NCBI RefSeq assembly: GCF_002148795.1
Contig: NZ_MPOB01000013.1
Coordinates: 1-64,000, forward strand
DNA from: Oceanibaculum nanhaiense
GTDB taxonomy: Bacteria; Pseudomonadota; Alphaproteobacteria; Oceanibaculales; Oceanibaculaceae
Direction of reading: 5' to 3'
Length of the DNA stretch: 64,000 bases
The notes beneath the pieces are model-generated. The model worked only from the letters and a program-made list of their open reading frames with translations. It did no database searches and was not told where the DNA came from. Of this stretch, positions 38,537 to 43,222 are shown piece by piece (position 1 is the first letter of the stretch; each line of letters begins with the position of its first letter). Made by a program: the position numbers and the translations under genes.

Positions 38537-39343
38537 TCACGGATAGAGGCCGGGATTGGCAAACATGGTGGGAGCCGGCCTGTCTGTGCCGCAGTTCGAT
38601 ACCGCGGGGTTGTCCGGGTCCAGGCTTTCCCAGCCATTGCTTCCCAGACCTTCCAGCGGGGTGAACCGGGTCTTGTAGGCCATCTTCTGGCTGCCCTTGA
38701 TCCAGTAGCCGAGATAGAGATAGTCAAGCCCGGCCTGGCGCGTGCGGTTGACCGCGTCCAGGATCATGAAGGTGCCAAGGCCGTGCCGGGGCGCCGCCGG
38801 ATTGTAGAAGCTATAGACCGCCGACAGCCCGTCGCTCTGCCGGTCCGCCAGCATGACAGCGAGCAGCTTTTGTTCGGGATCGCGATATTCCACCAGCCAG
38901 GTGTCGATCGGCGAGACCTCCACCATGTCGCGATAATCCTCATAGGTCATGAAGGACATCTCGCCGCCGAGGTGCCGTCCGGCCTGATAGGCCGTGAACA
39001 GCCGATATTGTTCCCAGCTGGCCACGGCGGGAACCGCTTCTCCGTGCAGATGCGCATTGGCGCGCATGATCCGGCGCTGGCTGCGGCTGAGACGGAAATC
39101 CTGGACGCGTAGGCGGACCGGTACGCAGGCCTGGCAGCCGGGACAGGCCGGCCGATAGACCAGATTCTGGCTGCGCCGGAAACCGGCAATGGCAAGCTGG
39201 TCGTAATGGGCCTGGGTGACCGACTTGCCGAGATCGGCGACCAGGCGCCGCTCCACACGGTTGTTCAGATAGGGGCAGGGCATCGGCGCGGTCCGGAAGA
39301 AATAGACCGGCGCGGTCAGAATATTGCGATCCCCCAGGAACAT
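38537..39343 (-). CDS. bpt: Aspartate/glutamate leucyltransferase (Bpt, N-degron pathway)
   Basis: Attaches leucine from Leu-tRNA to N-terminal Asp or Glu, marking proteins for ClpAP/ClpS. The cysteine-rich N-terminal motif CPYLNNRVERRLVADL and the RPACPGCQACVPVRLRV motif are diagnostic, as is the GNAT-like DTWLVEYRDPEQKLLAVMLADR...SAVYSFYNP region with YLYLGYWIKGSQKMAYK. It is 268 residues, with the last 25 or so beyond the usual family end. It starts 9 bp after the alpha-E gene stop and may share its transcript. Confidence 0.93.
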   Translation of the reverse strand: MFLGDRNILTAPVYFFRTAPMPCPYLNNRVERRLVADLGKSVTQAHYDQLAIAGFRRSQNLVYRPACPGCQACVPVRLRVQDFRLSRSQRRIMRANAHLHGEAVPAVASWEQYRLFTAYQAGRHLGGEMSFMTYEDYRDMVEVSPIDTWLVEYRDPEQKLLAVMLADRQSDGLSAVYSFYNPAAPRHGLGTFMILDAVNRTRQAGLDYLYLGYWIKGSQKMAYKTRFTPLEGLGSNGWESLDPDNPAVSNCGTDRPAPTMFANPGLYP

Positions 39344-39352
39344 GATCGTGTC

Positions 39353-40297
39353 CTATACGAAAAATTCGCGCTGAATATCGCCAGCGATATCCGTGGCCTG
39401 GTGTTGAATCCAGTCCGCGAACTCGTGCAGCCCTTCCTTGATGACGCTGTCGATTTTCTGTTCGTCCAGCGCCGCCCGAACCTCGTCCAGCCGTTCCAGC
39501 GCCGCCGCTCCGCCGCGCAGACCATAGCGGCTGCGCATCCGGTGCAGCAAATCATCCACCATATGAAAGCACATGGTGACCGACCGAGGGAAGCTGCTGT
39601 CGAACAGCAGGAAGTCGGCCACCAGAGTCGGGCTGAATCCGCGCGAATGAGCCCGGCGGAACGCGTGGTAGCCGGCGACGCAGCGCAGCAGCGCGTTCCA
39701 TTGGCTGGTGTCGATGGCCGCCCCCAAAGCCTGATTGGAGGGCGCCAGCAGATGGTATTTGATGTCCAGGATACGGGAAGTCTGGTCGGCGCGTTCCAGA
39801 TATTTCCCAAGCAGGTAGAAATACCAGCTGGCATCCCGGTAGAAAGTGCCCTCGGTGATGCCGAAATGGGTCTGGCAGGTTTCCTTGATCTGCGCGCAGG
39901 TCTGTGACACGCCAGCCATGGCGATGTCGGCCGGGGTCATCGAATTAAGATTGTTGTAGAACACGTTGATATGCGTCCACATCTCGGTGCTGATCAACGG
40001 CCGAAGGGTTCGCGCATTCTCCCGCGCGGCACGGACCGAAGACAGGATCGAGCTGGGGTTGTTCCGGTCCAGCAGATAGAAATCCAGCACAGCCTTGGCC
40101 GTTGCCTGGGTGTGGCGTTCGTAGAAGCGGGCATCGTCGGAATAGATCGAGACCACGGAACTCCAGTTCACGCTGCCGCTGCGATCGCGTGTGAAGGTCT
40201 CATGCACATCGAGGATGCGGGCCAGGTTTTCCGCCCGCTCCACATAGCGGGCCATCCAGAACACAGATTCGGCGTAGCGTGACAGCAGGACACTCAT
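39353..40297 (-). CDS. Alpha-E domain protein (DUF403)
   Basis: All-helical protein of 314 residues with the family opening LLSRYAESVFWMARYVERAENLARILDVHETF and the RSVTMCFHMVDDLL segment. Alpha-E proteins are genomically tied to circularly permuted ATP-grasp ligases and are thought to take part in making or modifying a peptide-like product; no reaction has been shown as far as I know. It overlaps the ATP-grasp gene by 4 bp. The transglutaminase-like and proteasome-like partner genes often found with the pair are missing here. Confidence 0.92.
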   Translation of the reverse strand: MSVLLSRYAESVFWMARYVERAENLARILDVHETFTRDRSGSVNWSSVVSIYSDDARFYERHTQATAKAVLDFYLLDRNNPSSILSSVRAARENARTLRPLISTEMWTHINVFYNNLNSMTPADIAMAGVSQTCAQIKETCQTHFGITEGTFYRDASWYFYLLGKYLERADQTSRILDIKYHLLAPSNQALGAAIDTSQWNALLRCVAGYHAFRRAHSRGFSPTLVADFLLFDSSFPRSVTMCFHMVDDLLHRMRSRYGLRGGAAALERLDEVRAALDEQKIDSVIKEGLHEFADWIQHQATDIAGDIQREFFV

Positions 40298-41760
40298 GAT
40301 TCCAGCACCCAGGTGTCCTTTGAGCCGCCGCCCTGCGAGGAATTCACGACAAGCGACCCGCGCTTCATGGCGACCCGGCTGAGGCCGCCGGGCAGCACCC
40401 AGGTCTTGCTGCCGGTCACGGCAAACGGCCTGAGATCGACATGACGCGGTTCCAGCGCCTGCTCGATGAGGGTCGGGCAGACCGACAGCTTCACCATCGG
40501 CTGGCTGATGAAATTAGCGGGATCATCCAGCAGTTTCGCACGGATATCCGCCAGTTCCTCAAGGGTTGCACGTGGACCGATGATCACGCCGTAACCGCCC
40601 GATTCGCCGACCGGCTTCACAACCAGCTTGGACAGATTCTCCAGCGTATAGCGCAGCCCCTCCGGTTCCCGGCAGATATGGGTCTCGACATTGTTCAGGA
40701 TGGGGTCTTCGTCGAGATAATATTTGATGATGCGCGGCATGTAGGCATAGACGGCCTTGTCATCGGCGACGCCGGTGCCGACCGCGTTCGCCAGGCCGAC
40801 ATTGCCGGCGCGGTAGGCGCGCATCAGCCCCGGCACACCCAGTATGCTGTCCGGACGAAACACCTCGGGGTCGAGGAAATCATCGTCGATTCGCCGGTAG
40901 ATGGTATGCACCGGCTGCAGGCCGGAAATGGTGCGCATATAGACCCGGTCATTCTCGACAATCAGGTCGCGGCCTTCGACCAGCGGCACGCCCATTTCGC
41001 GGGCCAGGAAGATGTGCTCGAAATAGGCCGAATTATAGGTGCCGGGAGAGAGCAGGACGACCGACGGGTCCTGGATGTCAGCCGGCGCGATGTCGGCGCA
41101 GGCTTCCAGCAGCATCTGGCCGTAATTGCCGACCGGACGGATGCCCACACCGCTCATCAGGTCGGCGAAGGTGCGCTGCATCATGTGGCGGTTCTCCACC
41201 ACATAGGACACGCCGGAAGGGCAGCGGCCATTATCCTCCAGCACCAGAAACTCACCGGCCTCGTCGCGTACCAGATCGACGCCGCAGACATGGACATAGG
41301 TGTCGTGCGCGACCTTCACGCCGACCATCTGCTGACGGAAATTCTTGTTGCCGAAGATCAGTTCGGCCGGAACGACCCCGTCCTTCAGGATTTTCTGGTC
41401 GCCATAGATATCCTTCAGGAACAGGTTGAGCGCCGTGACCCGCTGGACGACGCCACGCTCCAGATGGTCCCAGTCGGCTGCCGACAGCACCCGCGGAATC
41501 ACGTCGAAGGGCAGGATGCGGTCGATTGCGTCACTTTCGGAATAGACGGTGAAGGTGATGCCAAGGTTGAATAGCTCACGTTCGGCGGCGCGCGCGCGGC
41601 GCACCAGCTCTTCCGTGCTCATGCCCTGAAGCCGCTCGATCAGGCCGGCATTATGTTCCGCTGGCCGGTTGGACGTACCGAAAAGCTCGCAATAATAACC
41701 TGATGCGTCGTAGTCGGAGAGCAGGGGCTGCGGTTCCGTTCCGTCCATCATTACCTTCAT
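40294..41760 (-). CDS. Circularly permuted ATP-grasp protein (DUF404/DUF407)
   Basis: Predicted ATP-dependent carboxylate-amine ligase of 488 residues. Conserved blocks are the N-terminal RVLSAADWDHLERGVVQRVTALNLFLKDIYG, HVCGVDLVRDEAGEFLVLEDN, RTISGLQPVHTIYRRIDDDFLDP and the nucleotide-binding VVKPVGESGGYGVIIG. The C-terminus ends in LVVNSSQGGGSKDTWVLES. The start lies in a set of 14-bp repeats; ATG codons at 41760, 41751 and 41748 are in frame. Substrates are unknown; with alpha-E it likely builds a small peptide or modifies one. Confidence 0.92.
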   Translation of the reverse strand: MKVMMDGTEPQPLLSDYDASGYYCELFGTSNRPAEHNAGLIERLQGMSTEELVRRARAAERELFNLGITFTVYSESDAIDRILPFDVIPRVLSAADWDHLERGVVQRVTALNLFLKDIYGDQKILKDGVVPAELIFGNKNFRQQMVGVKVAHDTYVHVCGVDLVRDEAGEFLVLEDNGRCPSGVSYVVENRHMMQRTFADLMSGVGIRPVGNYGQMLLEACADIAPADIQDPSVVLLSPGTYNSAYFEHIFLAREMGVPLVEGRDLIVENDRVYMRTISGLQPVHTIYRRIDDDFLDPEVFRPDSILGVPGLMRAYRAGNVGLANAVGTGVADDKAVYAYMPRIIKYYLDEDPILNNVETHICREPEGLRYTLENLSKLVVKPVGESGGYGVIIGPRATLEELADIRAKLLDDPANFISQPMVKLSVCPTLIEQALEPRHVDLRPFAVTGSKTWVLPGGLSRVAMKRGSLVVNSSQGGGSKDTWVLES

Positions 41761-41800
41761 TATTCTGCGGGCATTATTCTGCGGGCATCATTTTCCGGGC
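41759..41800. repeat. Three 14-bp repeats over the ATP-grasp start codon
   Basis: ATTATTCTGCGGGC at 41759-41772 and 41773-41786, followed by a degenerate third copy ATCATTTTCCGGGC (11 of 14 matches). The first copy overlaps the start codon of the minus-strand ATP-grasp gene. The third copy runs into ordinary promoter-region sequence. Confidence 0.85.
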
Positions 41801-41894
41801 TGGACCGGATCGCTTTCATGTCGTCCCTGCCGCGAGCAGGATTTCCGGTTATTGAATCATATTTGAAAGGGTTGGCTGAAACCGCCCGACAATC

Positions 41895-42034
41895 AAGCGC
41901 TTTCGGCCAAGCGCTTTCGGCCAAGCGCTTTCGGCCAAGCGCTTTCGGCCAAGCGCTTTCGGCCAAGCGCTTTCGGCCAAGCGCTTTCGGCCAAGCGCTT
42001 TCGGCCAAGCGCTTTCGGCCAAGCGCTTTCGCCC
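41895..42034. repeat. Tandem array of ten 14-bp units with a palindromic core
   Basis: AAGCGCTTTCGGCC is repeated ten times head to tail (starts at 41895 and every 14 bp to 42021); nine copies are exact and the last has one change (GGCC to GCCC). Each unit contains the perfect 8-bp palindrome AAGCGCTT and the 4-bp palindrome GGCC. The array fills about half of the 298-bp gap between motB and the ATP-grasp gene, upstream of the latter. No frame is closed by a stop on either strand inside the array, which creates spurious ORFs with a 14-residue period. It is a likely variable-number locus or a multi-site protein-binding region. Confidence 0.97.
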
Positions 42035-42058
42035 AACCACTTTTCCGGTGCGGACTTA

Positions 42059-43222
42059 TTAGCGCGGCGCAGGCGCCAGGGCCTGCTGCGGCCGTGCAGA
42101 TGTCTCGGCGGCGGTATTGCCGGTGCGCTCGCGATAAACCTGATCGCGCAACAATACGATGCTGATGCGGCGGTTTTGTGCCGAACGCGGGTCTTCGGGA
42201 ACGAAGGGATCCTTATCGGCTTTGCCGACGACCCAGCCGATGCGGTCTTCCGGCAAACCGGCAGCGACGAGGGCGCGCCGGCTGGCGTTGGCACGGTCGG
42301 CCGACAGCTCCCAGTTCGTATAGCCATTGCTGGCGCGGTAGGGCAGGGCGTCGGTATGGCCGGTGATGGTGATCTTGTTCGGCAGCCGGCCGATGACCTG
42401 GCTGACCTTGTCCATCAGCTGCTGGGTGTAATCGTACATGTTGCTGCCGCCCAGCGGGAACATCGCGCGCTCTTCCTGATCGACAATCTGGATGCGCAAC
42501 CCGTCCGGTGTCTGCTCGACCACGATGTTCTCGTTCAGGCCGGACAGCGAGGGATCGGACTCGATGGCGGTGCGCAGCTGTTCCTCGGCGATCTCGAACT
42601 GCTGGCGCTCACGCTGGGCCATGGCCTCGGCAAGCTGTTGCTCGTTAAGCTGCGCCTGTCGGGTCTTGCCACTCCCGGATTCCGATTCCGGGCCCTGGCC
42701 GACATTCGGCTCCTGGCCCTGGCCACGGTTGGTCAAATCGCCATCGGCATCCTGATTGCTGTTACCGCGGCCTTTTTCCGGGCCGGAGCCAATCTCGGAA
42801 TAGCGGCTGCCGCTCTCCAGCTCCTGGCTACCGAACTTGGATTCGATATGATCGGGATCGTCGGAATCGGGTTCGTTCGCCTCGGTCCGCTCAGCCTGTG
42901 GCCGGGTCTGCGCCGGGGTGGAAATCATCGGCGGTGAAGAGGCCGATTTCAGCGCGCCGGGCACGGTGACGGAGGTGCCGCCAAGCACGCCGCCAGAGCC
43001 GGATCGGCTGGAGCGCGAAATGGCGCTTGGATCGAAATAGTTGGAGATGCCCATCTTCTGCTCCTCCGTGGTTGCGTTCAGCAGCCACAGGAGCAGAAAG
43101 AACGCCATCATCGCGGTCACGAAGTCGGCATAGGCAACCTTCCAGGCGCCGCCATGATGGCCGCCATGGCCACCCTTCTTGACCTTCTTGATGATAACTT
43201 CTGGATGGTTGTCGCCAGCCAT
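42059..43222 (-). CDS. motB: Flagellar motor stator protein MotB
   Basis: Peptidoglycan-anchored stator subunit of 387 residues. A basic, His/Gly-rich N-terminus (KKGGHGGHHGG) precedes the single helix AYADFVTAMMAFFLLLWLL, in which Asp33 is the proton-binding residue. A long, polar Gly/Ser/Asp/Glu-rich linker (about residues 70-190) leads to the OmpA-like domain with TITGHTDALPYRASNGYTNWELSADRA. It starts 44 bp after motA. The linker is longer than in E. coli MotB but such linkers occur in alphaproteobacteria. Confidence 0.95.
   Translation of the reverse strand: MAGDNHPEVIIKKVKKGGHGGHHGGAWKVAYADFVTAMMAFFLLLWLLNATTEEQKMGISNYFDPSAISRSSRSGSGGVLGGTSVTVPGALKSASSPPMISTPAQTRPQAERTEANEPDSDDPDHIESKFGSQELESGSRYSEIGSGPEKGRGNSNQDADGDLTNRGQGQEPNVGQGPESESGSGKTRQAQLNEQQLAEAMAQRERQQFEIAEEQLRTAIESDPSLSGLNENIVVEQTPDGLRIQIVDQEERAMFPLGGSNMYDYTQQLMDKVSQVIGRLPNKITITGHTDALPYRASNGYTNWELSADRANASRRALVAAGLPEDRIGWVVGKADKDPFVPEDPRSAQNRRISIVLLRDQVYRERTGNTAAETSARPQQALAPAPR

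Follow-up and report, generated by a model that had tools for sequence, protein, structure and literature searches.

How did ten nearly identical copies of a 14-bp unit come to lie between motB and an ATP-grasp gene in Oceanibaculum nanhaiense, and do they act on the genes that follow? The window analysed here is a 64,000-nucleotide stretch at the start of contig NZ_MPOB01000013.1, in which motA, motB and the ATP-grasp, alpha-E and bpt genes are all encoded on the minus strand. The array reads in the same direction and is located directly after the motB stop codon.

A near-exact ten-unit array between motB and the ATP-grasp gene

42059..43222, minus strand: motB, with MotB_plug and OmpA domains, the upstream neighbour of the array
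41895..42034, minus strand: ten-unit tandem array, minus-strand unit GGCCGAAAGCGCTT, from the sequence and TRF
40294..41760, minus strand: circularly permuted ATP-grasp gene with its likely start codon at 41748
39353..40297, minus strand: alpha-E gene; the ATP-grasp gene ends within it
38537..39343, minus strand: aminoacyl-tRNA-protein transferase gene (ATE_N/ATE_C), bpt-like

The plus-strand unit is AAGCGCTTTCGGCC; read as the genes are, on the minus strand, it is GGCCGAAAGCGCTT. Nine of the ten units are identical, and the motB-side unit (42021-42034, GGGCGAAAGCGCTT) carries one change, GGGC for GGCC. The sequence and TRF thus bear out, to the base, the nine exact and one near-exact 14-bp units described in the sequence-only reading, as well as the palindromic core AAGCGCTT that it saw in each unit and the placement between the end of motB (42059) and the first ATG of the ATP-grasp gene (41760). 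The likely ATP-grasp start is the ATG at 41748, which is preceded by AAGG. The 14-bp period runs unbroken from 41894 to 42031, and TRF reports 10.2 copies at 41894-42036 with a 99% match and a score of 279. When the window was dinucleotide-shuffled 100 times (6.4 Mb in all), TRF scores reached at most 70 and copy numbers at most 2.6; the array is far above chance expectation. It also has the highest TRF score among arrays in 864 kb of the O. nanhaiense genome, a background sample made up of 800 kb of stretches and the window. As 14 bp correspond to 1.33 helical turns, adjacent units are rotated by approximately 120 degrees around the helix, in agreement with the earlier remark that neighbouring sites lie on turning faces.

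Because the array is free of stop codons in every frame, the open reading frames that run over it (41760-42008, 41818-42165 and 41893-42327) are by-products, and a coding reading was rejected, the array being absent from relatives. The order of motB followed by the ATP-grasp gene is kept in many Rhodospirillales; despite this shared neighbourhood, we know of no link between motB and the ATP-grasp/alpha-E sets. Azospirillum loci carry another conserved box, CCTGTTCAAA...TCATACT, in the equivalent gap.

A single related copy in the sister genome points to a recent expansion

The three other Oceanibaculum genomes (G001, G002 and G003) share the gene order, and none has the array; the motB/ATP-grasp gaps of G002 and G003 contain no such repeat. 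In G001, the closest relative, whose ATP-grasp protein is 95% identical, one related copy (GACGGAAACCGCTT, 11 of 14 bases) stands at the equivalent point, and in a pairwise alignment with this genome the extra units appear as an insertion. In other genomes, 56 gaps with the same motB to ATP-grasp synteny were examined, and none contained a comparable array. Furthermore, the paired palindrome at 14-bp spacing was not found in 385 genomes of the class, the window's genome excepted, and the two-unit motif was not found in approximately 85,000 other prokaryotic species genomes and had no match in the genome_contigs or viral_contigs collections. Comparison of these sequences indicates that the expansion most likely happened in the O. 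nanhaiense lineage after the split from G001. The homogeneity of the units means that the amplification is recent or that the units are still being evened out; recent amplification, as proposed from the window, is well supported by the one diverged copy at the G001 site and by the absence of an array from the other genomes.

Two properties of a minisatellite or VNTR are seen in the array: its units are head-to-tail and highly alike, their 14 bp falls within the class of approximately 7-100 bp, and copy number at the same site differs between genomes, ten versus one in this between-species comparison.

The array abuts a conserved block and a candidate promoter

41872..41898, minus strand: genus-conserved 27-bp block GCTTGATTGT-N6-GTTTCAGCCAA, once per genome in 4/4 Oceanibaculum genomes
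41868..41896, minus strand: candidate promoter TTGATT-17-AACCCT, a proposed element with a weak -10
41874..41908, minus strand: quasi-palindrome with the gene-side array unit as its left arm

The gene-side unit shares GCTT (41895-41898) with a 27-bp block that always lies in the motB/ATP-grasp gap of the four Oceanibaculum genomes, with no mismatch at its 21 specified bases. Because it is conserved and suitably placed, the block probably serves the ATP-grasp/alpha-E/bpt genes as promoter or operator. The equivalent gap of three outgroup loci (L083, L015 and L017) holds a TTG-containing hexamer, 17 bp and TAGCCT. The array abuts a block with promoter-like spacing, but a sigma-70 consensus scan found no promoter. 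Conservation of the block includes part of the -35/-10 spacer and is unusually strong for a plain promoter, for which reason the block may hold an operator.

At the site equivalent to the quasi-palindrome, a 12-bp stem capped by a 3-nt loop is present in G001, and the window's genome carries an imperfect version of it. A genus-wide conserved RNA hairpin was rejected, since the stem at this seed site occurs only in the window's genome and G001, and its absence from G002 and G003 implies that the block is conserved by sequence and not as a stem. Within the array, an adjacent unit pair can form a hairpin with the 8-bp stem AAGCGCTT and a 6-nt loop, and as single-stranded DNA the complete array folds far better than its shuffles do (z = -7.0 and -7.7 for the two strands).

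Expansion of an ancestral single copy

In our view, the array is probably a young, lineage-specific minisatellite, a promoter tandem repeat that arose from one ancestral copy through slippage or misalignment of the template. The starting point would have been a single 14-bp stretch, namely the left arm of the hairpin-forming sequence immediately before the conserved candidate promoter or operator; after an initial duplication, slippage of strands or their misalignment at the hairpin would have raised the number to ten. Hairpin-forming repeat sequences are prone to both, and we infer slippage as the origin of the array. Its copy number is probably unstable and may still be changing. Since the array takes the place of the DNA just ahead of the candidate promoter, it may have an effect on the ATP-grasp/alpha-E/bpt genes; any such effect would be at most mild and non-dedicated, acting through the altered upstream DNA. 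The variable-number switch suggested in the sequence-only reading is possible by analogy with known promoter repeats.

Intergenic 13-16 bp arrays with 2-3 copies are common in the window's genome, and some small intergenic arrays are missing or shorter in G001; the ten-copy array is therefore the extreme of an ordinary small-array process. A point against slippage alone is that ten near-identical copies are an outlier relative to the next-longest non-coding arrays in the sample, which have about 3-5 imperfect copies. The locus offers a clean case for how arrays start, in that a very young ten-copy array can be set beside its ancestral state, a single copy still visible in the sister species. 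Repeats that expand next to promoters are known to allow rapid and reversible shifts in expression, and have been described mainly in pathogens; the host here is a free-living marine bacterium. The array is most likely an ordinary minisatellite, useful as a strain-typing marker.

Comparison with known repeats and the case for an expression tuner

Several described systems resemble the array in part. The M. tuberculosis dop, lpdA and cysG repeats (PMC12817950) likewise consist of near-exact head-to-tail units directly upstream of a probable promoter, and their copy number differs between lineages as it does here between species; however, their units of 54-58 bp contain the promoter, whereas ours are 14 bp long and lie upstream of the candidate promoter. 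Four copies of the lpdA promoter repeat, compared to one, give 12.5-fold more expression (PMC12817950). In H. influenzae, the hmw1A/hmw2A repeats form a short-unit, many-copy array that is also absent from the loci of some strains; these heptanucleotide repeats, which like our array lie approximately 100 bp upstream of a gene, are reported to alter adhesin expression (PMC2651432). They differ in having 7-bp units in up to 38 copies and in serving adhesins, where our array precedes housekeeping-type genes. The typing VNTRs of Burkholderia pseudomallei (PMC1853098) are similarly intergenic, with 4-10 copies and no assigned function, but their units are mostly 6-9 bp, against 14 bp here, and they are known to vary, while the present comparison covers one genome per species.

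Such precedents raise the idea of a selected, phase-variable tuner, in which frequent copy-number change would set the promoter output of the ATP-grasp/alpha-E/bpt genes. The lpdA (PMC12817950) and hmw (PMC2651432) cases, in which promoter tandem repeats alter expression, speak for it, as does the direct contact between the array and the conserved candidate promoter block. We nevertheless regard it as unlikely: the array is restricted to one species, there is no known reason for switching these genes, and, unlike in M. tuberculosis, the promoter is not part of the repeated unit. Anbu-operon relatives have been described as constitutive and dispensable (PMC5666114). It is improbable, too, that the array is a fast-changing operon tuner in which slippage of the hairpin arm by the -35 region would generate cell-to-cell differences; if true, the tuner would diversify a little-understood peptide-ligase system in a free-living marine bacterium.

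A role in RNA, as a protein-binding cluster or as a dispersed element

Alternatively, transcripts reading out of motB might fold the array into a long hairpin and, in the manner of REP-type elements, stabilise the end of the motAB message or lower read-through into the ATP-grasp gene. As RNA, the gap has a folding energy of -135.9 kcal/mol (z = -5.3), and the array follows right behind the stop codon of motB, on the strand that encodes it, an arrangement consistent with such an element. However, the hairpin has no U tract (T tract in the DNA) and hence an intrinsic terminator was rejected, relatives without the array retain the gene order, and there are no dispersed copies of the kind found in REP families. 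REP/BIME elements are palindromic units behind stop codons with a strong RNA fold that are dispersed in many copies; the array shares the palindromic units after a stop codon and the strong fold, but its unit occurs at one locus only instead of in intergenic copies across the genome. Rfam returned only a chance-level match (Ms1, 16.3 bits versus a gathering score of 162). We consider an RNA element doubtful, and a reading at the RNA level is not needed to explain the array.

Ten evenly spaced palindromes next to a conserved regulatory block could also suggest an operator cluster, or a sponge, for a protein that reads AAGCGCTT. Such a site should be conserved or enriched at other promoters, and it is neither: the palindrome is missing from this site in G001, G002 and G003, the 12-bp core occurs outside the array 21 times compared to 17 for a control pattern (up to one mismatch), and AAGCGCTT occurs 22 times in 800 kb against 12.6-15.4 expected, i.e. 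near expectation. With neighbouring sites rotated by approximately 120 degrees, a bound protein would not find them on a shared helix face. This makes an operator cluster very improbable, and the proposed sponge is disfavoured by the same control-level core, the unconserved unit and the lack of a common face.

The genome-wide search for the unit that the sequence-only reading had asked for was carried out and revealed no second array locus, only three single sites with two mismatches elsewhere in the genome, at or below control level. A dispersed element was therefore rejected, the array being confined to a single locus in the genome with none in the class genomes or the contig, viral and plasmid sets. 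The suggestion of a replication or nucleoid site likewise found no support, as there is one locus in one species and the plasmid collection gave no match to the array; its neighbours, motAB and the ATP-grasp gene, also differ from the setting of plasmid iterons, which lie next to the gene of a replication initiator.

That the array is an assembly artefact or has a wrong copy number is scarcely credible: the assembly is draft-like, with 40 contigs, and 140 bp is near short-read length, but short-read assembly usually collapses copies instead of inventing them (an argument also made in PMC12817950), and both flanks are unique and in the same order as in the sister species. The copy number of ten is read from this 40-contig assembly, and long reads may revise it.

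Other small arrays at the locus and in the sister genome

41758..41800, minus strand: second 14-bp array, 3.1 copies of the minus-strand unit CCCGCAGAATAATG, just before the likely ATP-grasp start

This second array lies approximately 95 bp from the ten-copy array and spans the first in-frame ATP-grasp ATG. It is likewise absent from G001 and is lineage-specific. The gap-length estimate relative to G001 (-174 for each of two window arrays) covers both arrays jointly, and a few rows of these estimates are unreliable. Arrays with a period not divisible by three number 30 in 864 kb of the window's genome and 13 in 819 kb of the sister genome, an approximately twofold excess that may reflect biology or assembly and sampling. 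At the end of bpt, TRF found no array in the window, and it is here, at the other end of the cluster, that G001 has a 14-bp, 3-copy array of its own (L127:12038-12080).
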